Shown here piece after piece: positions 1 through 10,265 of a stretch of DNA of 10,265 nt. Each line of letters begins with the position of its first letter. The first letter of the stretch is position 1. The stretch comes from Desulfobacteraceae bacterium (GTDB lineage: Bacteria > Desulfobacterota > DSM-4660 > Desulfatiglandales > Desulfatiglandaceae), in assembly GCA_020349865.1 (NCBI GenBank), contig CP070700.1:3618902-3629166 (forward strand). The letters are read 5' to 3'. The notes beneath the pieces are model-generated. The model saw only the letters and a program-made list of their open reading frames with translations, did not search any database and was not told the DNA's origin. The translations under genes and the position numbers were made by a program.

Positions 1-3000
1 TTCCCTGGTAATTATTTTTGTGATGAGTGTGGCCATAAACTAAGTCTTCCGACTGAAGCTCCACCAACAGAACTCTCCTTTGATGAAAAACTTTCCAAGA
101 TCCAACGTTACCTCCCTAAGGGCCTAACCGAGAAGATCCTTTCCCAAAGGGATAGAATCGAGGGAGAACGTAAGCAGGTCACGGTAATGTTCTGTGACAT
201 GGAAGGGTTTACCCACCTTTCTGAAAGACTCGGCCCTGAGGAAGCTTACACTATCATGGATCAGGTTTATGAGATCCTGATTCACAAAGTCCACGATTAT
301 GAAGGCACGGTCAATGAGTTTACCGGTGACGGGATCATGGCGCTTTTTGGTGCGCCTATTGCACTGGAAGATGCACCCCAGCGGGCCATCCGATCCGCCT
401 ATGCCATCCATAGAGAGATATCTCAGTTCAGCGACAAAGTGACGCAAAAGAAACAGGATATACCTCGCTTTAGAATGCGGATCGGCGTTCACACTGGCCC
501 TGTGGTGGTGGGCGCTTTGGGTAACGATCTCAGGGTGGAGTTTAAGGCAGTCGGTGACACGGTCAATCTGGCTTCCCGGATGGAGGGGTTGGCAGAGCCG
601 GGCAGCACTTATGTTTCGAAAGATACCTTTCGGCTTACAGAGGGTCTTTTTCGATATGAGGCTCTGGGTGAATATGCAGTCAAAGGTAAAGCAGACGCAG
701 TCAAAGCGTATCGTGTCATTGCCCCCAGCACCAGTAGAACTCGATTTGATGTCAGTGCCGAAAGGGGGTTGACGCCATTTGTCGGAAGGGAGAGAGAGCT
801 CGAGCTTTTGTTGGATGGATTTGAACGTGCCAAGGCAGGTCGAGGCCAGGCAATATCAATTATGGCGGAAGCAGGAGTTGGCAAATCAAGGCTTTTGTAT
901 GAGTTCAGAAAAGCGGTGTCCAATGAAGATGTGACCTTTCAGGAGGGTAAATGTCTTTCTTACAGTCGTGGTGTGGCCTATCAACCGGTAATAGACATCG
1001 TGAAAGCAAACTTTGATATTGTCGAGGGCGATGGTGATCTTGAGATCAGGCAAAAGCTCAACCGGGGCCTGAAGATATTGGGTGCTGATGAAGCTTCGAC
1101 GCTGCCGTATCTTATGGAGTTATTATCGGTCACGGACAGCGGTATCGACACAATCACCTTAAGTCCTGAAGCGAGGAAGGATCGAATCATCGAATCCTTA
1201 AATCGAATGACCCTTAAAGCTTCGGAGATTCGGCCCCTGATCATGGCAGTTGAAGACCTTCATTGGATCGATAGGAGTTCTGAGGATGTATTTAAATATC
1301 TTTTAGATAGCATTACCGGGGCAAGGGTATTTTTAATACTTACCTATCGGCCTGAGTTTGTACAGATTTGGGGTACAAAATCATATCACAGCCAGGTGAA
1401 TCTGAATCGGCTTTCAAATCGGGAAAGTCTTGCAATGGTTGCCTATCTATTGGGCACCAAAGATATCGACAGGGAACTTGAAGAATTGATACTTGAAAAG
1501 ACAGAAGGAGTTCCCTTTTTTATCGAAGAGTTTATAAAATCCCTCAAAGACTTAAAGATCATCGAAAAAAAGAATAATGCATACCATTTGGCAAAAGAAG
1601 TTCAGGAAGTGACAATCCCTTCCACGATTCAGGATGTGATCATGGCCCGGGTAGACACGTTGCCTATGGCTGCCAAAGAAGTACTTCAAACCGGATCGGT
1701 TATTGAAAGGGAGTTTAGCTATGAATTAATCAAGACAGTGTTGGGTCAATCAGAGCAGGAACTACTGTCTCGACTATCGGTGTTGAAAGATGCAGAGCTT
1801 CTCTATGAAAGGGGCATCTATCCAGAAACCAGCTTGATTTTCAAACATGCTTTAACACAAGAAGTGGTTTACGATTCGATATTAACTCAAAAGAAAAAGG
1901 AACTTCATAACAAAATCGGTCAATCCATTGAGGATCTATACCAAGATAATCTTAACGAATACTATGGGGTGTTAGCCGAGCATTTTATCAACAGTGAAAA
2001 TTTTGAGAATGGGGCTGAATATTGCAAATTGGCTGGGAGGAAAGCTGAGAAAGCGGGATCTCTGAATGATTCGACAATTTATGGGGAAAAACAAATTATC
2101 TGTCTTGAGAGATTGCCGCAAACAGAGGAGGTTGAGAAGAGTTTAATCGATGCCCGGACGACGCTTGGCCTTTATTACTCCCAGATGGCCCAGATTATTA
2201 AAGCTAAAGCGGCTGTTGATCCGATAGTAGATCTGGCAATAAAGCAAAATTATAAAAAAAGGATTTCGCAGATAAATACCATAATCGGTATGTATCATTA
2301 TATGGTTGAGGAGAATATCACAACAGCATTCGAAACTCTGGAGAAAGCATTGAAGATCGGAGAGGAGTTAAATGACATACTCTCTTTGGTCTTGATTAAG
2401 ACTTACTTGGGTATAGGTTTCTGGTACACTTGTGAATTTGCGAAAGCACTCCATTATTTCACAAAAGCATTAGAAATTAATGTTTCGGCAAATGCCCTTT
2501 GGGGGATATCATCGTTAAAGGCTTGGATAGCAGAGGTTATTATTACTCAAGGAAAGATTGATCTTGGTTATGACACAAGCCATGAGTCATTAAGGATTGC
2601 TGATGAAAGTGGTGATCAATATTCAAAGGGGTGTGCATATACTGCCCATGGTTGGTCTTATTATTTTAGAGGATATTTTAAAAAAGCAGAAGAATACCTC
2701 ATAAGGGGTGTCGATATTACAGAAGGGATAAATCAGTTAAAATGGGCTGCTGATGCAGGTTTTGGATTGGGAATGACTTACTTTGAGATGGAAGAATATA
2801 AACTATCTCAGAAGCAGTATGAAAGCGTAATTTCTATATATCTACGTGGGAGTGTGTTCCCATCTTTTGTCAATTTGTTTAAAATTGCTTCAGCCCTGTC
2901 AAAAATGATGAACAATGAGATTGATGTCAGCAAAAATGAAATATTTAGATGCTATCAGGATAGTAAAATAAAATTGGCTAAAGTATGGATGCTGAGTTTT

Positions 3001-3261
3001 ATCACTGAGATTCTGCTAAACATGGACGATCAACAATCATTTGAAGCGGAGGATTGGATCAAGAGAGCCATCGAAGCGCACAATCAATACAGCATGATGT
3101 GGCATTTAGCCAAAGATTATGCGCTGTATGCGGAATTGTTTAAACGAAAAGGCGATCTGTCGAAAGCCAGAGCACACTTTAGCAAGGCAATTAATATCTT
3201 CAAAGAATGCAGTGCTGATGGATGGGTGGAAAAATATGAAATGAAACGGGCAGCGCTTTAA
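1..3261 (+). CDS. Class III nucleotide cyclase / AAA ATPase / TPR protein, copy 1 (5' partial)
   Basis: The frame is open from base 1, so the gene starts outside the window; against copy 2 about 35 residues are missing. From the first visible codon, residues 7-10 are the last CxxC of a zinc ribbon. A cyclase domain follows (about 57-240) with metal-binding Asp66 and Asp110 and transition-state Asn189 and Arg193. The ATPase has a Walker A AEAGVGKS at 289-296 and a Walker B ending in Glu418-Asp419. A helical TPR-like region runs from about 600 to the end. No signal peptide or membrane helix is visible, so it is probably cytosolic. By family, such proteins make a cyclic nucleotide under control of the ATPase/TPR sensor. 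Glu106 and Lys182 occupy the purine-recognition sites, so ATP or GTP preference cannot be assigned. A methionine at 187 is the first ATG in frame but lies inside the cyclase domain and is not the true start. Confidence 0.9.
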   Translation, partial: FPGNYFCDECGHKLSLPTEAPPTELSFDEKLSKIQRYLPKGLTEKILSQRDRIEGERKQVTVMFCDMEGFTHLSERLGPEEAYTIMDQVYEILIHKVHDYEGTVNEFTGDGIMALFGAPIALEDAPQRAIRSAYAIHREISQFSDKVTQKKQDIPRFRMRIGVHTGPVVVGALGNDLRVEFKAVGDTVNLASRMEGLAEPGSTYVSKDTFRLTEGLFRYEALGEYAVKGKADAVKAYRVIAPSTSRTRFDVSAERGLTPFVGRERELELLLDGFERAKAGRGQAISIMAEAGVGKSRLLYEFRKAVSNEDVTFQEGKCLSYSRGVAYQPVIDIVKANFDIVEGDGDLEIRQKLNRGLKILGADEASTLPYLMELLSVTDSGIDTITLSPEARKDRIIESLNRMTLKASEIRPLIMAVEDLHWIDRSSEDVFKYLLDSITGARVFLILTYRPEFVQIWGTKSYHSQVNLNRLSNRESLAMVAYLLGTKDIDRELEELILEKTEGVPFFIEEFIKSLKDLKIIEKKNNAYHLAKEVQEVTIPSTIQDVIMARVDTLPMAAKEVLQTGSVIEREFSYELIKTVLGQSEQELLSRLSVLKDAELLYERGIYPETSLIFKHALTQEVVYDSILTQKKKELHNKIGQSIEDLYQDNLNEYYGVLAEHFINSENFENGAEYCKLAGRKAEKAGSLNDSTIYGEKQIICLERLPQTEEVEKSLIDARTTLGLYYSQMAQIIKAKAAVDPIVDLAIKQNYKKRISQINTIIGMYHYMVEENITTAFETLEKALKIGEELNDILSLVLIKTYLGIGFWYTCEFAKALHYFTKALEINVSANALWGISSLKAWIAEVIITQGKIDLGYDTSHESLRIADESGDQYSKGCAYTAHGWSYYFRGYFKKAEEYLIRGVDITEGINQLKWAADAGFGLGMTYFEMEEYKLSQKQYESVISIYLRGSVFPSFVNLFKIASALSKMMNNEIDVSKNEIFRCYQDSKIKLAKVWMLSFITEILLNMDDQQSFEAEDWIKRAIEAHNQYSMMWHLAKDYALYAELFKRKGDLSKARAHFSKAINIFKECSADGWVEKYEMKRAAL

Positions 3262-3431: not shown

Positions 3432-3722
3432 ATGTGGGTGAGACTAATTGAGGCTAAAATTCAACTTGACAAAATGGATGAGATGAGGAGAATCTACAAT
3501 GAAGAGATTGTGCCTGTAGTAAAGGCCCAGAAGGGAAACATAGATATCTTCCTGATGAAATCGGCAGATAGGGAAGGGCAGATTATCTCTTTTACTTCCT
3601 GGGAAAATAAAAACGCCGGCGATGCATATGAGGAAAGCAAAACGTATGCCAAGATGTTTAACAAGCTGAGGCATACTTTTGATGGTGCGCCGACGCTGTG
3701 GTCATACGAGGTTATGAAGTAG
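3432..3722 (+). CDS. ABM-like dimeric alpha/beta-barrel small protein
   Basis: This 96-residue protein has the length and pattern of the antibiotic biosynthesis monooxygenase (ABM) / dimeric alpha-beta barrel superfamily. It has an opening beta strand (WVRLIEAKI), a helix with EMRRIYNEEIVPVVK, a GNIDIFLMKS strand, an IISFTSWEN strand, and a second helix around ESKTYAKMFNKL. Members are small cytosolic proteins that may oxidise or degrade small aromatic or haem-like substrates, or only bind ligands; nothing here fixes a substrate. The ATG is set by a near-perfect AAAGGAGGT at 3415-3423, 8 nt upstream. Its TAG stop overlaps the ribosome binding site of cyclase copy 2, which argues for co-transcription and translational coupling. 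A ligand-binding partner for the cyclase is possible but is inference. Confidence 0.75.
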   Translation: MWVRLIEAKIQLDKMDEMRRIYNEEIVPVVKAQKGNIDIFLMKSADREGQIISFTSWENKNAGDAYEESKTYAKMFNKLRHTFDGAPTLWSYEVMK

Positions 3723-3731: not shown

Positions 3732-6700
3732 GTGAAATGCCTAAAATGCCAGTTTGTTAATCGTGAAGGGGCTAAATTTTGTCTTAAATGCGGTGAGAAG
3801 CTGGAAATTAAATGTTCTAAATGTGGTAAACATTTACCCGTTGAGGCAATTTTCTGTGATGCCTGTGGCCACAAACTAAGTCTTCCCTCCGAAGCCCCGC
3901 CCAAAGACCTCTCCTTTGATGAAAAACTCACAAAAATTCAACGTTATCTTCCTAAAGGCCTTACGGAGAAGATCCTATCTCAGAAGGAAAAAATCGAAGG
4001 GGAACGGAAGCAGGTCACGGTGATGTTCTGTGACCTGGAAGGGTTCACCCAGTTTTCGCAAAGAATTGGTCCTGAGGAAGCTTACGCTGTCATGGATCAG
4101 GTCTATGAGATCCTGATTCACAAAGTCCACCATTATGAGGGTACCGTCAATGAGTTTACGGGCGACGGGATTATGGCTCTTTTTGGAGCACCTATTGCCT
4201 TAGAAGATGCTCCGCAAAGGGCGATTCATGCCGCGCATGCGATTCATCGTGAGATGGCAAAGTTCAGCGTTGGACTCAAGCAGAAGAAAAAGATAGCATC
4301 TGCTCTTAAAATGCGAATCGGTATTCATACCGGTCCCGTGGTGGTAGGTACTTTAGGCAATGATTTGCGGGTAGAGTTCAAGGCGGTCGGGGATACCGTG
4401 AATATGGCATCCAGAGTGGAAAATCTCGCCGAATCTGGAACAACTTATGTTACCGAAGCGACTTTCAAATTAACCGAGGGTCTTTTTCGATTTGAAGCTC
4501 TGGGAAAAAGAGATGTTAAAGGAAAGATAGAAGCTGTTGGGGTTTACAGGGCAATTGCACCCAGCACGAGAAGGACAAGGTTTGATGTCAGTACCGATCG
4601 GGGTCTAACGCCATTTGTAGGAAGGGAGCGCGAGTTAGAGCTCTTGCTCGATGGTTTTGAGCGAGCAAAGCTCGGTAGGGGACAGGCTTTTTCAATTGTT
4701 GCTGAAGCAGGAGTTGGTAAATCCCGGCTTTTATATGAGTTTAGAAAGGCTGTGGCTCACCAGGATGTCACGTTTTTAGAAGGAAGGTGTCTTTCTTACA
4801 GCAAGGGCGTCGCGTATCATTTGCAGACAGACATCCTAAAAGCAAATTTCAATATTATAGAGAGTGACAGGGATTCAGAAATCAGGGCGAAAGTTATCAA
4901 AGGATTAAAAATACTGAAAGCCGATGAACCTTCAACTTTGCCTTATCTTCTGGAGATTTTAGGCGTAAAAGACAGCGGCATCGACCAGATTCTCATAAGC
5001 CCTGAGGCCAGGAAAGACCGCATCATCGAGGCATTGAAGCGCATTGTTTATAAAGGATCTGAAATTCGAACGCTAATTCTGGCCTATGAAGACCTGCATT
5101 GGATGGATAAAAGTTCAGAAGATGTGTTGAAAAATTCATTGGATTATATACCCGGGGGAAGGGTATTATTTATATTCACCTATCGCCCCGAATTTGTGCC
5201 TTCCTGGGGCGGTAAATCCTACCATAACCAATTAACCTTGAACCGGCTTTCGAATCGAGAAAGCCTTGCCATGGTAGCTTATCTGCTCGGCACCGACTCG
5301 CTTGATGAAGATCTTGAAAACCTGATTTTGGAGAAGGCTGAAGGGATTCCCTTTTTCATTGAGGAGTTTGTCAGGTCTCTAAACGATCTCAAACTTTTAG
5401 AGGAAAAGGGCGGAAAATATTGGCTGGCCAAAGATTATCAAGATGTGACCATTCCTTCTACCATCCAGGATGTCATCATGGCCAGAGTGGATTCGCTGCC
5501 CGAAAATGCCAAAGATGTCCTGCAGACAGGCTCAGTAATTGAAAGAGAGTTCGACTATCGGTTGATAAAGCGAGTGACTGACCTTCCAGAACAAGAATTG
5601 TTGTCCAGTCTGTCGATTTTAAAGGAAGCTGAGCTTATCTACGAACGGGGCATATATCCGGAAACCACCTATATCTTCAAACATGCCCTTACCCGGGAGG
5701 TGGTTTATGATTCCTTATTAACCAAACGAAAGAAAAAGCTTCATGAAAAGATAGGCAATGCAATCGAGGATTTGAACAAAGAGAATATTGGCGAGTTTTA
5801 TGGGGTTCTCGCCGGACATTTTATTGAAAGTTGGAATTATGAAAGGGGAGCTGAGTACTGCCAATTGTCAGGTAAAAAGGCCGTCAAAGCGGGTTCATAT
5901 AGAGATGCGATCGAGTATGCCAAGAAAAGAGTCTTATGTCTCGAGCGATTACCAAAAACAGATGCGACTCAGAGGAAAATCATTGACGCCAGAACGGTTC
6001 TTGCAGGTTATTATATGAGTTTGAGTCGCCTTGTGGATGCAAAAGAGGCTGTTACCCCAATAGTTGATTTGGCTTTAGCGCTCAATCATCAAAGAAGGCT
6101 TCCAGGGATTCATGTTGCCATTGGGCTGTATAGTCTTTGGGGCGAAGAGGATAATTCGAAAGGATTTCGACAATTAAACGAGGTATTTAAGATCGCAGAG
6201 AAAGTGGATGATGAATTAGTCTTTTATATGCCTTTGTGGTTTGCGAATTATTATCTAGGAGCTACCCTGAGTTTTAATTGTGAATTTGAAGGAAGTCTTG
6301 AGTATCTTAAAAAATGCATGGATTTGAGTAAATTAGCAAATGATTTGGTTGGGATACCATTTGCGAAAGGTGTCATATGCCTTAACTATGTTTTTCAAGG
6401 AAAAATAGACGCTGCCTATAAAATAGGCGGAGAAGCGTTACAAGTGGCAAAAGAAATCGGTGGTATGTTTGTTAAAGGGATGGCCTATACCGCTTATGGG
6501 GTGTCTTGTTATTTTAAAGGGTTTTTTGATGAAGCGGAAAGTAAGCTTCTCAAAGGGTCAGATTATTGTGAAAAAACTACTCAGGCTGTCTGGGGACCCT
6601 GGGCACCTTTTTCATTGGGTCATATGTATTGTGATATGGGAAAATATGAAAGGGCAACGGGTTATTATCAAAAAGCAATTTCGATTCTGGAACCTGGTAG

Positions 6701-7112
6701 AATTTTACCCTCCTGGGTGAAAATGTTTGAAGTCGCGACAGCGAGGGCAAAGGCACTCAATAGAGATCAGGGCATCAATCTAAGTGAGCTATTCAAATAT
6801 TATAAGGATAATAAACACAAGGTTTTTGAAGGCTGGGCCGCGAGATATATTGGAGAGATTTTGTTGAATATTGATGACTCTCACATATCTGAGGCGGAGG
6901 ATTGGGTCAAGAAGGCTATCAAAGCCGACAAACGGAATCGCACAGTGTGGTCCTTAGGCGGTGATTATGCCCTTTACGCCGAACTGTTTAAACGAAAAGG
7001 TAATCTGCCAAAAGTCGGTGAGAACCTAAGTAAGGCAATCGAAATCTTCAAAGAATGCAGTGCTGATGGATGGGTAAAGAAATATGAAAAGGAACTGGCA
7101 GCAATTTCTTAA
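3732..7112 (+). CDS. Class III nucleotide cyclase / AAA ATPase / TPR protein, copy 2
   Basis: This 1,126-residue protein is complete and starts at GTG. Two zinc ribbons come first (Cys3, 6, 17, 20 and Cys28, 31, 42, 45), then a short helical linker. The cyclase domain (about 92-275) has metal ligands Asp101 and Asp145 and transition-state Asn224 and Arg228. The ATPase (about 295-560) has Walker A AEAGVGKS at 324-331, Walker B ending Glu453-Asp454, and a conserved YRPEF strand. The rest (about 640-1126) is TPR-like helical repeats. It resembles copy 1 closely through the cyclase and ATPase, diverges in the TPR part, then matches again in the last 45 or so residues. Family knowledge suggests signal-gated synthesis of a cyclic nucleotide in the cytosol. 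Glu141 and Lys217 replace the usual Lys and Asp/Thr that read the purine, so the product is uncertain. It is the middle gene of a likely three-gene operon. Confidence 0.92.
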   Translation: MKCLKCQFVNREGAKFCLKCGEKLEIKCSKCGKHLPVEAIFCDACGHKLSLPSEAPPKDLSFDEKLTKIQRYLPKGLTEKILSQKEKIEGERKQVTVMFCDLEGFTQFSQRIGPEEAYAVMDQVYEILIHKVHHYEGTVNEFTGDGIMALFGAPIALEDAPQRAIHAAHAIHREMAKFSVGLKQKKKIASALKMRIGIHTGPVVVGTLGNDLRVEFKAVGDTVNMASRVENLAESGTTYVTEATFKLTEGLFRFEALGKRDVKGKIEAVGVYRAIAPSTRRTRFDVSTDRGLTPFVGRERELELLLDGFERAKLGRGQAFSIVAEAGVGKSRLLYEFRKAVAHQDVTFLEGRCLSYSKGVAYHLQTDILKANFNIIESDRDSEIRAKVIKGLKILKADEPSTLPYLLEILGVKDSGIDQILISPEARKDRIIEALKRIVYKGSEIRTLILAYEDLHWMDKSSEDVLKNSLDYIPGGRVLFIFTYRPEFVPSWGGKSYHNQLTLNRLSNRESLAMVAYLLGTDSLDEDLENLILEKAEGIPFFIEEFVRSLNDLKLLEEKGGKYWLAKDYQDVTIPSTIQDVIMARVDSLPENAKDVLQTGSVIEREFDYRLIKRVTDLPEQELLSSLSILKEAELIYERGIYPETTYIFKHALTREVVYDSLLTKRKKKLHEKIGNAIEDLNKENIGEFYGVLAGHFIESWNYERGAEYCQLSGKKAVKAGSYRDAIEYAKKRVLCLERLPKTDATQRKIIDARTVLAGYYMSLSRLVDAKEAVTPIVDLALALNHQRRLPGIHVAIGLYSLWGEEDNSKGFRQLNEVFKIAEKVDDELVFYMPLWFANYYLGATLSFNCEFEGSLEYLKKCMDLSKLANDLVGIPFAKGVICLNYVFQGKIDAAYKIGGEALQVAKEIGGMFVKGMAYTAYGVSCYFKGFFDEAESKLLKGSDYCEKTTQAVWGPWAPFSLGHMYCDMGKYERATGYYQKAISILEPGRILPSWVKMFEVATARAKALNRDQGINLSELFKYYKDNKHKVFEGWAARYIGEILLNIDDSHISEAEDWVKKAIKADKRNRTVWSLGGDYALYAELFKRKGNLPKVGENLSKAIEIFKECSADGWVKKYEKELAAIS

Positions 7113-7138: not shown

Positions 7139-8047
7139 ATGCTTGAACAAAAAAAGCCTTTCAACTTCACTCGGACTCGATCAGATTTTATGAGTCAGGG
7201 CGTCAGGTGTGCAGCAGACCTGTATTTGCCAACCGCTGTTGACAAGCCACCCATCGTTATCATGGCACATGGATTGGGGGCTGAAAGAAGCTTCGCACTG
7301 CCTGCCTACGCCGAATATTTTGCGAACCAAGGGATGGCAGTACTTCTGTTTGATTACCGCTGCTTCGGCGATAGCGACGGCAAACCCAGACAACTGGTGC
7401 TCCCCACACATCATTTGCAGGATTGGCAGGCCGCTATGCGCCATGTCCAGTCAATACCGACTGTAGACACAGGCAGGATTGCGCTCTGGGGCAGTTCATA
7501 CAGCGGTGGTCACGTCATCGTTACAGCTGCAAAAGAACCGAGCATTGCAGCGCTTGTCAGCCAAGTACCAGCTGTCGATTCCTTGCAACACTTGCTTGGC
7601 AAGGGTTTGGGCTTTATTTTAAAGGTAACGGTTCACGGTATTTATGATGTGTTACGAATGGTGATAGGGCTTTCAGCACATTGCGTCCCGCTAATTGGCA
7701 AACCCAAAGAATTTGCCGTGCTGAATTCGCATGATGCTTACGACGGCTATATGTCACTGGTGCCGGAAGGCTCCACATGGGAGAATAAAGTACCTGCCAG
7801 GCTGGCTTTAACAGCGCCATACCGCCCAATCAAATCAGCCGCTAAAGTTTCCTGTCCTGCTCTTGTGGTTATTGCAGAAAATGATTCGATTATACCAGCA
7901 ACATTGCAGGAAGAAATGGCTGCCAAAATTTCCAAAGCCGAGGTTGTCAAATATCCCATTGGTCATTTCGATATCTATACTGGGGATAAATTCGAGGAAA
8001 CCGTCAGAACACAAGCAGCCTTTCTCAAGAAGCATTTATACGATTAA
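7139..8047 (+). CDS. Alpha/beta hydrolase family protein
   Basis: The 302-residue protein shows the full alpha/beta hydrolase layout. The oxyanion-hole HG is His44-Gly45 in IVIMAHGLG. The nucleophile elbow is GSSYSGG with Ser120 as nucleophile, the acid is Asp249 (ENDSIIP), and the catalytic histidine is His276 (GHFDIY). A lid-like insert lies between about 150 and 230. No signal peptide is seen, so it is probably a cytosolic esterase-like enzyme; the substrate cannot be told from sequence alone. The elbow has Ser where the classical GxSxG has its second Gly, a variant seen in this group of hydrolases. The ATG follows AAGGA (7127-7131) by 7 nt and lies 26 nt after cyclase copy 2, so it is likely in the same operon. 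Confidence 0.85.
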   Translation: MLEQKKPFNFTRTRSDFMSQGVRCAADLYLPTAVDKPPIVIMAHGLGAERSFALPAYAEYFANQGMAVLLFDYRCFGDSDGKPRQLVLPTHHLQDWQAAMRHVQSIPTVDTGRIALWGSSYSGGHVIVTAAKEPSIAALVSQVPAVDSLQHLLGKGLGFILKVTVHGIYDVLRMVIGLSAHCVPLIGKPKEFAVLNSHDAYDGYMSLVPEGSTWENKVPARLALTAPYRPIKSAAKVSCPALVVIAENDSIIPATLQEEMAAKISKAEVVKYPIGHFDIYTGDKFEETVRTQAAFLKKHLYD

Positions 8048-8354: not shown

Positions 8355-8912
8355 ATGGAAGGATGGACTGAAGAAGAGATTAGAAACAAGGATTTAATGT
8401 CACCCTGCGGGCTATACTGCGGTGTATGCGCGGTTTACATTGCAACGAGAGATAAAAATGAAAAATTAAGGGCAATTATAGGAAACCTTTACGGAACAAA
8501 ACCCCAAGAAACGGAGTGTTTAGGGTGCATGCAATCCGATCCGCCGAAAAAGCTCTATGGCTATTGCAAGATGTGCAAGATAAGGGATTGCGTAAAATCC
8601 AAAGGATATTACTCTTGCCACCAATGTGAAGAATGGCCATGCAGTATCACAGAAAGTTTCTCTATTACAACTGGCGCAAGAGTTATGAAAAGAACGATAC
8701 CTCTATGGCGAGCTAAAGTAGCTGAGCACGGCGATGAGGCGGGCAGCATAGAATGGGCACGGTCAGAATGTGAACGTTATCATTGTTTTTCATGTGGTGA
8801 ACCGCTTTTTAGAGGTGCCCAACGTTGCAGGGCCTGCAAAAAGGATATCGCCAATGAATTAGATGGATCCTTTGCTGGGTCAACAACCAAATTTTTCCAA
8901 CAATCTTTCTGA
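8355..8912 (+). CDS. DUF3795-type cysteine-rich protein with C-terminal zinc ribbon
   Basis: The 185-residue protein opens with the DUF3795 signature CGLYCGVC (Cys18, 22, 25). More paired cysteines follow: Cys55/58, Cys71/74/79 and Cys88/91/96. This family is common in anaerobes, is of unknown function, and probably binds metal or an Fe-S centre. After a linker, Cys144/147 and Cys158/161 (CFSC and CRAC) form what looks like an added zinc ribbon. In total there are 16 cysteines, and no signal peptide or membrane span. The ATG is set by GAGGAGG (8341-8347) 7 nt upstream. It stands alone, with gaps of more than 300 nt on both sides. A metal-binding regulatory or chaperone role is possible, but I would not assign one. 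Confidence 0.8.
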   Translation: MEGWTEEEIRNKDLMSPCGLYCGVCAVYIATRDKNEKLRAIIGNLYGTKPQETECLGCMQSDPPKKLYGYCKMCKIRDCVKSKGYYSCHQCEEWPCSITESFSITTGARVMKRTIPLWRAKVAEHGDEAGSIEWARSECERYHCFSCGEPLFRGAQRCRACKKDIANELDGSFAGSTTKFFQQSF

Positions 8913-9242: not shown

Positions 9243-9698
9243 ATGGCTCAGATTAGCGGAATGCATCATGCGTGTATCATTGTTCCCGAGATTGAAGAAG
9301 CAAAAAAATGGTATCAGGATGTACTTGGTCTAAAATTAATGGCGGAATTTGATCTTGCATCGCCAGAGGTGGGAACAGGGGTAGCAGTACCAAATGCACA
9401 TCTCTTGGGGGCCATGCTCCAATGGGGTGAAGCAGAGGGTGCTACCATGGTGGAGTTAATAGAATACGCGAATCCAGCAGGTCAAAAATTCGATCCCGAC
9501 ACACCCTCAAATGCTCAAGGAGTTGCGCATATAGCCTTTTCTACTGTAGATGCCATTGATGAACTTTATAGTGAATTTGTTGCCAAGGGTGTCAAATTCT
9601 ATTCTCCGCCTCAATCTGTAGAAGTGGGCGGGGCCGTGGTCAAGTTCTGCTATTTCCAAGATCTTAACGGTGCCAAATTGGAGTTTATTGGGACCTGA
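9243..9698 (+). CDS. VOC superfamily (glyoxalase/bleomycin-resistance/dioxygenase fold) protein
   Basis: The 151-residue protein has the two beta-alpha-beta-beta-beta modules of the vicinal oxygen chelate fold. The first opens with HHACIIVPEIEEAKKWYQDV and the second with GVAHIAFSTVDAIDEL. The likely metal ligands are all present: His9, Glu71, His96 and Glu147. A single divalent metal and a small hydroxy-, thio- or CoA-linked substrate are therefore expected. The sequence resembles the lactoylglutathione lyase / methylmalonyl-CoA epimerase-like branch, but the reaction cannot be fixed. The ATG is set by AAAAGGAGGT (9226-9235) 7 nt upstream. It is 198 nt from the next gene with palindromes between, so co-transcription with the MerB-like gene is uncertain. 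Confidence 0.85.
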   Translation: MAQISGMHHACIIVPEIEEAKKWYQDVLGLKLMAEFDLASPEVGTGVAVPNAHLLGAMLQWGEAEGATMVELIEYANPAGQKFDPDTPSNAQGVAHIAFSTVDAIDELYSEFVAKGVKFYSPPQSVEVGGAVVKFCYFQDLNGAKLEFIGT

Positions 9699-9844: not shown

Positions 9845-9896
9845 CACTCTGAAAAGGAAATTCTCATAAACCCACTCAAATAAAGGAGATGGTGCT

Positions 9897-10265
9897 ATGA
9901 ATGAACCCAGCCAAAAGGACAGAACCTTCCAAATCATAATGAAACGCATGGTGGAGACAGGGCAAGCGCCTCACTATACGGAGCTTGCAGTCGAGTTAGG
10001 AGTCACACCCGAAGAAGGACGCAAAGCCCTTCATGAGCTTTTTTCCCGCAACTTTCCAGGTTGGTTGTTCCCCAATACCGATTACATCGTCTCTTTTCCA
10101 CCGTTCAACCACCTTCCCACCCAGTATCGCATTACGATAGAGGGTCAGCAGAAGTGGTTCGCCCAGTGAGGGTTCGAGTCGCTGGCGGTCAGCTGGCTTT
10201 TTCCGGGCAAAATTGTCCAGATTGATGCTCCGTGCCTTGATTGTGGGTCGCCAATCAGAGTGGAA
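9897..10265 (+). CDS. MerB-like (organomercurial lyase family) protein with in-frame TGA, probable selenoprotein (3' partial)
   Basis: The ATG follows AAAGGAGAT (9882-9890) by 6 nt. Residues 1-50 form a helix-turn-helix-like N-terminal domain, then PTQYRITIEGQQKWFAQ leads into a TGA at codon 91. Reading on, GFESLAVSWLFPGKIVQIDA and PCLDCGSPIRVE continue to the window end without another stop. Aligned by eye to plasmid MerB, whose active-site strand reads LYAWCALDTL, codon 91 falls on catalytic Cys96. Cys113 falls on Cys117. Glu94 stands where MerB has Asp99. Members of this family break carbon-mercury bonds or act on related substrates. A hairpin just after the TGA fits a SECIS. I infer selenocysteine at residue 91. 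A nonsense mutation, pseudogene or base error remains possible, in which case the product ends at 10169 with 90 residues. The second catalytic cysteine (Cys159 in MerB) would lie beyond the window. Confidence 0.75.
10167..10169 (+). other. In-frame TGA, probable selenocysteine codon
   Basis: TGA is codon 91 of the MerB-like frame and sits at the position of the catalytic cysteine of MerB. Family-like sequence continues in the same frame for 32 more codons to the window edge. TGA differs by one base from TGC/TGT, so a mutation or read error is the main alternative. Confidence 0.65.
10170..10204 (+). promoter_or_regulatory. SECIS-like hairpin directly after the in-frame TGA
   Basis: GCTG (10181-10184) pairs with CAGC (10190-10193) around a 5-nt loop GCGGT. 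Below a bulged T (10194), GAGTC (10176-10180) pairs with GGCTT (10195-10199) using two G-U wobbles. GGG (10170-10172) can close with TCC (10202-10204). The loop starts with G, 16 nt after the TGA, near the short end of the spacing usual for bacterial SECIS elements. These elements bind SelB to recode UGA. Confidence 0.55.

Follow-up and report, generated by a model that had tools for sequence, protein, structure and literature searches.

MerB, the organomercurial lyase, is the textbook methylmercury-breaking enzyme, and two cysteines in it hold the metal. We take the numbering and active-site roles of Cys96, Asp99 and Cys159 in MerB as given. Soft metals are bound more strongly by selenolates than by thiolates. 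A 10,265-nucleotide (nt) stretch of a Desulfobacteraceae genome (GenBank contig CP070700.1, positions 3,618,902 to 3,629,166; hereafter the window) ends in the 5' part of a MerB-like gene with an in-frame TGA at the place of Cys96, and relatives of this gene carry a second in-frame TGA at the place of Cys159. The gene very probably encodes a MerB-fold lyase in which both metal-gripping residues are selenocysteine (Sec, U). Table 1 of PMC13188914, with 119 families and subfamilies, contains one MerB-like protein, SaoL, which has the motif CU and a single Sec. As far as that table goes, a Sec form of the MerB superfamily is already catalogued, but with a single Sec, which a SaoL-type gene described below places at the Cys159 site; neither the literature listings nor the same Table 1 showed a double-Sec MerB.

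The reading frame opens with the ATG at 9897-9899 and runs for 90 codons to the TGA at 10167-10169, which is codon 91. Another 32 open codons lead from there to the window end at codon 123, and the complete length of relatives is 211-250 codons. The features of the gene are as follows, with the selenocysteine insertion sequence abbreviated as SECIS.

9882..9888, + strand: AAAGGAG, a likely ribosome-binding site 8 nt upstream of the ATG, assigned from sequence only
9897..10265, + strand: 5' part of the predicted double-Sec MerB-like gene, codons 1-123, running off the window end
10167..10169, + strand: TGA, predicted Sec91 codon, at the place of MerB catalytic Cys96
10176..10178, + strand: GAG, the codon of Glu94, which aligns with Asp99 of MerB and does not vary in alignment A4
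10181..10197, + strand: proposed SECIS-1 hairpin, 6-bp stem and 5-nt loop GGTCA
10233..10244, + strand: conserved CLDC, with Cys113 and Leu114 invariant and Asp115 and Cys116 present in at least 90% of A4

The protein read through the TGA belongs to Pfam MerB (PF03243), scoring 32.3 bits with a gathering cut-off of 27, and a full-length relative reaches 72.6 bits. The 90-residue fragment alone gave no Pfam or NCBIfam match at E <= 0.001. The original prediction had proposed a MerB-like frame on both sides of the TGA, with a gene caller returning only a 90-residue piece that hides the gene's identity, and both proposals hold. Database entries of 90 residues that are 96% and 87% identical to the window protein are among the matches listed.

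A scan of genome contigs yielded 74 loci, and 71 were counted at column 91; L071, L072 and L074 were left out because they match without crossing this column or cross it only as fragments (the L072 fragment has TGA there). Column 91 is TGA in 65 loci, TGC in five, TGT in one and nothing else, so a chance TGA at this place does not explain the data. The record titles name Deltaproteobacteria, Desulfobacterales, Syntrophaceae, Chloroflexi/SAR202, Poribacteria, Abyssobacteria, Nitrospinota and Alphaproteobacteria; the nearest relative, L001, comes from a Desulfosarcina metagenome-assembled genome and is 81% identical over 123 residues. A second in-frame TGA stands near codon 156 in all 70 loci with enough contig (the L045 contig is too short), including all six Cys91 loci for which DNA was available. 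It is followed by a conserved tail of 55-93 residues where complete, mostly starting with xxM(N/T/L)(L/F)FRSEEH. The final stops of the 70 loci are TAG (26), TAA (23) and TGA (20), with one off the contig. The original prediction called for homologues with Cys or TGA at column 91 and for a frame that runs on past the first TGA, and these relatives show both. Its reading as a Cys-to-Sec selenoprotein stands for the Sec and falls short as a simple swap: the other mercury-binding Cys is also replaced by Sec in the relatives, and the family is better described as a double selenoprotein. We regard UGA91 of the window gene as almost certainly Sec, and a Sec156 in the window copy as highly likely.

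When L001 was aligned to solved chains, Cys96 of MerB fell opposite codon 91, Cys159 opposite codon 156 and Asp99 opposite Glu94, which agrees with the earlier assignment of the TGA to the catalytic Cys96. Column 91 falls on the C of MerB2 '..FAWCAISTL' and of MerB '..YAWCALDTL'. A PDB search with the 123-residue window fragment returned designed proteins only, and full-length L001 was needed to reach the solved MerB relatives. The AlphaFold2 prediction has the MerB fold and matches a solved MerB structurally, with the upper rows of the fold searches alone counted as evidence. MerB itself (NF009710, NF033555; PDB 3f0o, 3f2f, 3f2h, 3fn8, 5c0t) is 15-17% identical, and MerB2 (PDB 5c17) ranks first among the solved relatives in sequence score (E 0.0007) as well as in Z (16.7). 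The three sites are Cys96/Asp99/Cys159 in MerB and, in the alignment, Cys/Ser/Cys in MerB2; the window gene has Sec91 and Glu94 and its relatives have Sec/Glu/Sec, which differs from the MerB triad. L001 also scores below the MerB equivalog cut-offs, with 34.5 bits against 193 for NF009710 and 24.6 bits against 200 for NF033555.

SaoL (NF040728) resembles the window gene in belonging to the MerB superfamily, in having Sec where a catalytic Cys would stand and in bacterial UGA recoding. A SaoL-type gene in the sampled phylum of the L001 genome (L141, G174:C54; 175.2 bits, cut-off 140) retains Cys at the position of Cys96 and carries 'C-Sec' at that of Cys159. The match of the NCBI SaoL model to this gene ends at the residue just before Sec, and the protein that the model represents thus appears to be truncated. 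The window fragment (32.9 bits) and four full-length relatives (36.2-40 bits) stay under the SaoL cut-off of 140, the scores of this family ranging overall from 32.4 to 40 bits, and no SaoL exceeded it in 21 genomes. The CU motif is also absent: relatives have two Sec sites, site 1 in the window reads Q-Sec, and in the loci shown the Sec of site 2 follows A, S, R, N or M and never C, unlike SaoL. Because score, motif and Sec count all differ, the window gene is not assigned to SaoL. Judged by sequence, its product looks as if it works like a MerB/SaoL-type protein without being a SaoL.

Differences between loci were counted per codon position and amounted to 0.26/0.16/0.56 over the 40 codons after the first TGA, 0.37/0.28/0.52 over the 35 codons after the second and 0.75/0.75/0.75 after the final stop. 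Between the window and the 71 loci, the values downstream of the window TGA were 0.17/0.12/0.55. Coding constraint continues through both TGAs and ends at the third stop codon. Codon usage and folding were analyzed in 67 of the 70 genes, L024, L064 and L068 being dropped for contig ends or ambiguous bases; read with the two TGAs, these genes contain 434 Trp codons, all of them TGG.

These data bear on the other explanations of an in-frame TGA. A pseudogene truncated by the TGA, or a sequencing error in the window, would fit the 90-residue open reading frame (ORF) given by the gene caller and the single copy of the window sequence. The recurrence of the TGA in 65 of 71 loci, which come from numerous genomes and assemblies, the two database entries that likewise stop at codon 90 and the constraint beyond the TGA speak against it and leave it very improbable. 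Translation of TGA as tryptophan under genetic code 4 draws on the databases. Among 189 proteins aligned to L001, taken from lists of 120 of 2029 and 120 of 222 matches, columns 91/156 were Trp/Trp in 53, Cys/Cys in three and other combinations in six, and 127 have Cys91 but end before column 156 or are not aligned there. At least 53 database relatives thus carry Trp at both columns, as expected from automatic code 4 translation, and these entries seem to be exactly that, UGA translated by code 4. The genes themselves point elsewhere: the Trp codons are all TGG and no further TGA interrupts the frames before their full length, so TGA is not read as Trp. The sense-codon loci and the three Cys/Cys proteins hold Cys at the columns, and TGA is the final stop at 20 of 69 observed ends. 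We consider code 4 in these organisms practically out of the question, and the code 4 reading, a pseudogene and a sequencing error were all rejected. Other database relatives are often fragments because gene callers take the UGAs as stops. Among them P0002, P0017 and P0019 are entries of 155-156 residues with Cys91, unnamed or called 'organomercurial lyase'; they are probably truncated at the second Sec, since every Cys91 locus with DNA has TGA there.

The original prediction also asked for Sec machinery in the source genome. The search for such machinery covered 49 genomes of relatives, which account for 50 of the 71 loci, and 14 control genomes; it is present in most of the relatives' genomes searched. 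SelB exceeded its cut-off in 45 of 49 relatives' genomes versus 2 of 14 controls. The transfer RNA for Sec (tRNA-Sec) passed its gathering score in 39 of 49, and 37 of these scores were at least 59 bits. SelA was present in 16/16 relatives' genomes versus 1/14 controls, and SelD in 13/16 versus 2/14 controls, with an in-frame TGA in a copy from each of the 13. Within a sample of 297 genomes from the L001 phylum, 20 carry a two-TGA MerB, and SelB was found in 18 of these.

Conserved SECIS-like hairpins, mostly with a GGUC loop, stand downstream of the two TGAs, one behind each. SECIS-1 has the consensus GCTGGC-GGTCT-GCTGGC and reads GCTGGC-GGTCA-GCTGGC in the window, where the stem consists of four G-C/C-G pairs and two G-U wobbles and the loop begins 17 nt after the TGA; the minimum-energy fold of the window prefers an overlapping hairpin at 10176-10199 with the loop GCGGT. 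Across loci, SECIS-1 is 98.7% paired, with a G within the first two loop positions in 65/65 and GGTC in 41/65. Synonymous conservation at codons +4 to +8 after the first TGA was 1.53, 1.13, 0.90, 0.65 and 1.03 bits (62 TGA loci; background 0.21, standard deviation 0.14). Among five Cys91 loci shown, the SECIS-1 codon pattern is lost in L050, L066 and L067 and largely kept in L049 and L065. SECIS-2, seen in relatives only, has the consensus CTCTTCC-GGTC-GGAAGAG with a 7-bp stem and a loop 19 nt after the TGA; it is 99.4% paired and its loop is GGTC in 64/68. Synonymous conservation at codons +5 to +9 after the second TGA was 1.77, 0.68, 1.56, 1.75 and 0.72 bits (67 loci; background 0.33, standard deviation 0.17), and its folding energy versus synonymous shuffles gave z -1.65, with eight control sites between -0.48 and +0.23. 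Covariation in SECIS-2 comprised 22 double-changed cells, and the covariation score was reached by 0/500 shuffles. The bacterial SECIS (bSECIS) model, as given in PMC13188914, has a loop of 3-9 nt with G in the first two positions, 16-37 nt after the UGA, on a stem of 4-16 bp. The consensus loops and spacings of both hairpins fall within that published geometry, a comparison of loop, spacing and stem. Outside the SECIS-2 hairpin, codons -1 and +1 of the second TGA also show raised synonymous conservation (0.95 and 1.01 bits), which is perhaps recoding context.

Several of these results weigh against the Sec reading or dilute its support. The window edge precedes site 2. Four of the 49 relatives' genomes lack SelB over the cut-off (G002, G023 and G014 with partial pieces, and G036), two genomes with a two-TGA MerB in the phylum sample (G059, G161) gave no SelB match at E <= 1e-70, and 5 of 14 controls likewise have a tRNA-Sec over the gathering score. 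SelB is found in 263 of the 297 sampled genomes, and its presence discriminates weakly because it is common in the phylum anyway. Pair counts in SECIS-1 show no covariation and its mean folding z is a weak -0.28 (-1.10 for the window's own hairpin), so SECIS-1 rests on synonymous conservation and the loop match. In SECIS-2 a single pair accounts for 20 of the 22 double-changed cells, which may stem from a small number of events; out of five measures, two were not, or nearly not, beyond shuffles, and the count of further pair types was not beyond shuffles. An Rfam search of 9850-10265 with E up to 10 returned a single opposite-strand match at E 4.1, far under its gathering score.

The wider distribution of PF03243 places the window gene in one of several Sec-containing groups. 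In the 49 relatives' genomes, 61 places matched, with two TGAs in 53, one in seven and none in one. In the 297 genomes of the phylum of G001 (the L001 genome), 34 genomes held 42 places: two TGAs in 27, one TGA in three, TAA in one and none in 11. All 27 two-TGA places were inspected (20 fetched regions and seven family loci) and have TGAs at both MerB columns. In 301 genomes of the G013 phylum there were 51 places, three of them under the cut-off, with two TGAs in five, one TGA in 13, TAG in one, TAA in one and none in 31; TGA positions in this phylum were read for G013 (L043) only, and the 13 one-TGA places are perhaps single-Sec MerBs.

Clade A, which includes the window gene, has Sec/Glu/Sec, with Asp in the single member L138. 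Clade B is divergent, keeps Asp99 and has Sec/Asp/Sec in 11 genes: L131 (G001:C1), L132 (G005:C1), L115, L124, L126-L129 and L134-L136. L131 reads '..AAUAVDAIATPFVQ..QFURKSVFFWSEEH'. In clade B SECIS-2 the loop-closing pair is T-A in 8/11 and C-G in 3/11, and the loop is GGTC in 11/11; many members have a hairpin with loop CGTGC after the first TGA and the GGTC hairpin after the second. In a third set, L139-L143, Cys96 is retained and Sec occurs solely at the place of Cys159. Within it L139 (G015:C138:19000-20600) is a near-canonical MerB with AWCALDTL whose in-frame TGA is confined to the Cys159 position, scoring 173.6 bits against NF009710 (cut-off 193). One further MerB-domain match, L130 (G268:C180), has an internal in-frame TAA and is possibly a decayed copy. 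In the tree, clades A and B are apart and the Cys/Cys sequences branch beside A, with long branches and an uncertain root; the Sec/Sec label requires five changes, three of them forced by well-supported branches. Because branches are long, the root is weak and only three of the five changes are forced, a separate origin of clades A and B is possible but no more than a reading of this tree.

Upstream of the MerB-like gene the window contains the following genes.

7139-8047: alpha/beta hydrolase, UilS-like (153 bits, cut-off 400)
8355-8912: DUF3795 protein
9243-9698: glyoxalase/VOC protein

Two tandem, similar large ORFs precede these, at 1-3261 (1086 codons, incomplete at the window edge) and 3732-7112 (1126 codons), with an ABM-domain protein between them at 3432-3722. 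Judged by sequence, the large ORFs are putatively class III cyclase plus ATPase/TPR-like proteins.

Both UGAs would be decoded by SelB and tRNA-Sec. The two selenolates would then bind an organometal R-M, most likely an organomercury compound such as methylmercury, and a protonated Sec or Glu94 (Asp99 in MerB) could deliver the proton on which the carbon-metal bond is cleaved. Sec91 and Sec156 would hold M(II) until it is taken by a thiol or another carrier. The MerB fold of the predicted model and the two metal-binding positions in the alignment suggest carbon-metal bond cleavage, and we give organomercury an even chance of being the main substrate.

A real double-Sec MerB-fold protein with another job competes closely with a mercury lyase, at somewhat under even probability; it might act on another organometal or on an organo-arsenic, organo-tin or organo-selenium compound, or serve as a metal chaperone or redox protein. 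The gene is an orphan in its surroundings. Among 536 ORFs of at least 80 residues within 4.5 kb of the 71 loci and of the window, none proved to be a constant partner; the commonest neighbour cluster, a CCG-domain protein, occurs in nine of these 72 sequences, and the next, in 8, 7, 6 and 6 loci, are an ABC/TOBE transporter, a flavin adenine dinucleotide (FAD) oxidase, an acyl-CoA dehydrogenase and C_GCAxxG_C_C. MerA exceeded its cut-off in 1 of 16 relatives' genomes, Asp99 is replaced by Glu, and the E-values of L001 against solved MerB chains are weak (0.12-0.37, and the 0.0007 of MerB2). NCBI names SaoL, the nearest catalogued selenoprotein relative, an 'organometallic lyase' and not a mercury lyase. 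With no shared neighbourhood and MerA so rare, mercury as the substrate is suggested by the fold alone. Against such other functions stands the preservation of the whole MerB fold with both metal-binding positions. The mercury methylation protein HgcA is likewise commoner in genomes with a two-TGA MerB: it exceeded its cut-off in 9 of 16 relatives' genomes, and within the 297-genome sample in 10/20 genomes with a two-TGA MerB versus 72/277 others (Fisher p 0.035) and in 9/16 with clade A versus 73/281 (p 0.017), both tests being post hoc and uncorrected for kinship and genome size. We treat the HgcA association as a lead only.

The broadest interpretation, a widespread selenium-based organomercurial lyase, possibly of more than one origin (clades A and B), that provides MerA-independent demethylation or self-protection in anaerobes, many of them mercury-methylating, is tentative and on present evidence rather unlikely. 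With relatives stored as fragments of 90 or 155 residues or with apparently wrong Trp readings, the family may be overlooked or wrongly counted when demethylation genes are surveyed. If natural enzymes with selenium at both positions form a large family, they would allow the metal chemistry of selenolates and thiolates to be compared readily. Such a family may also be relevant to methylmercury breakdown by anaerobes in which MerA was rarely found.
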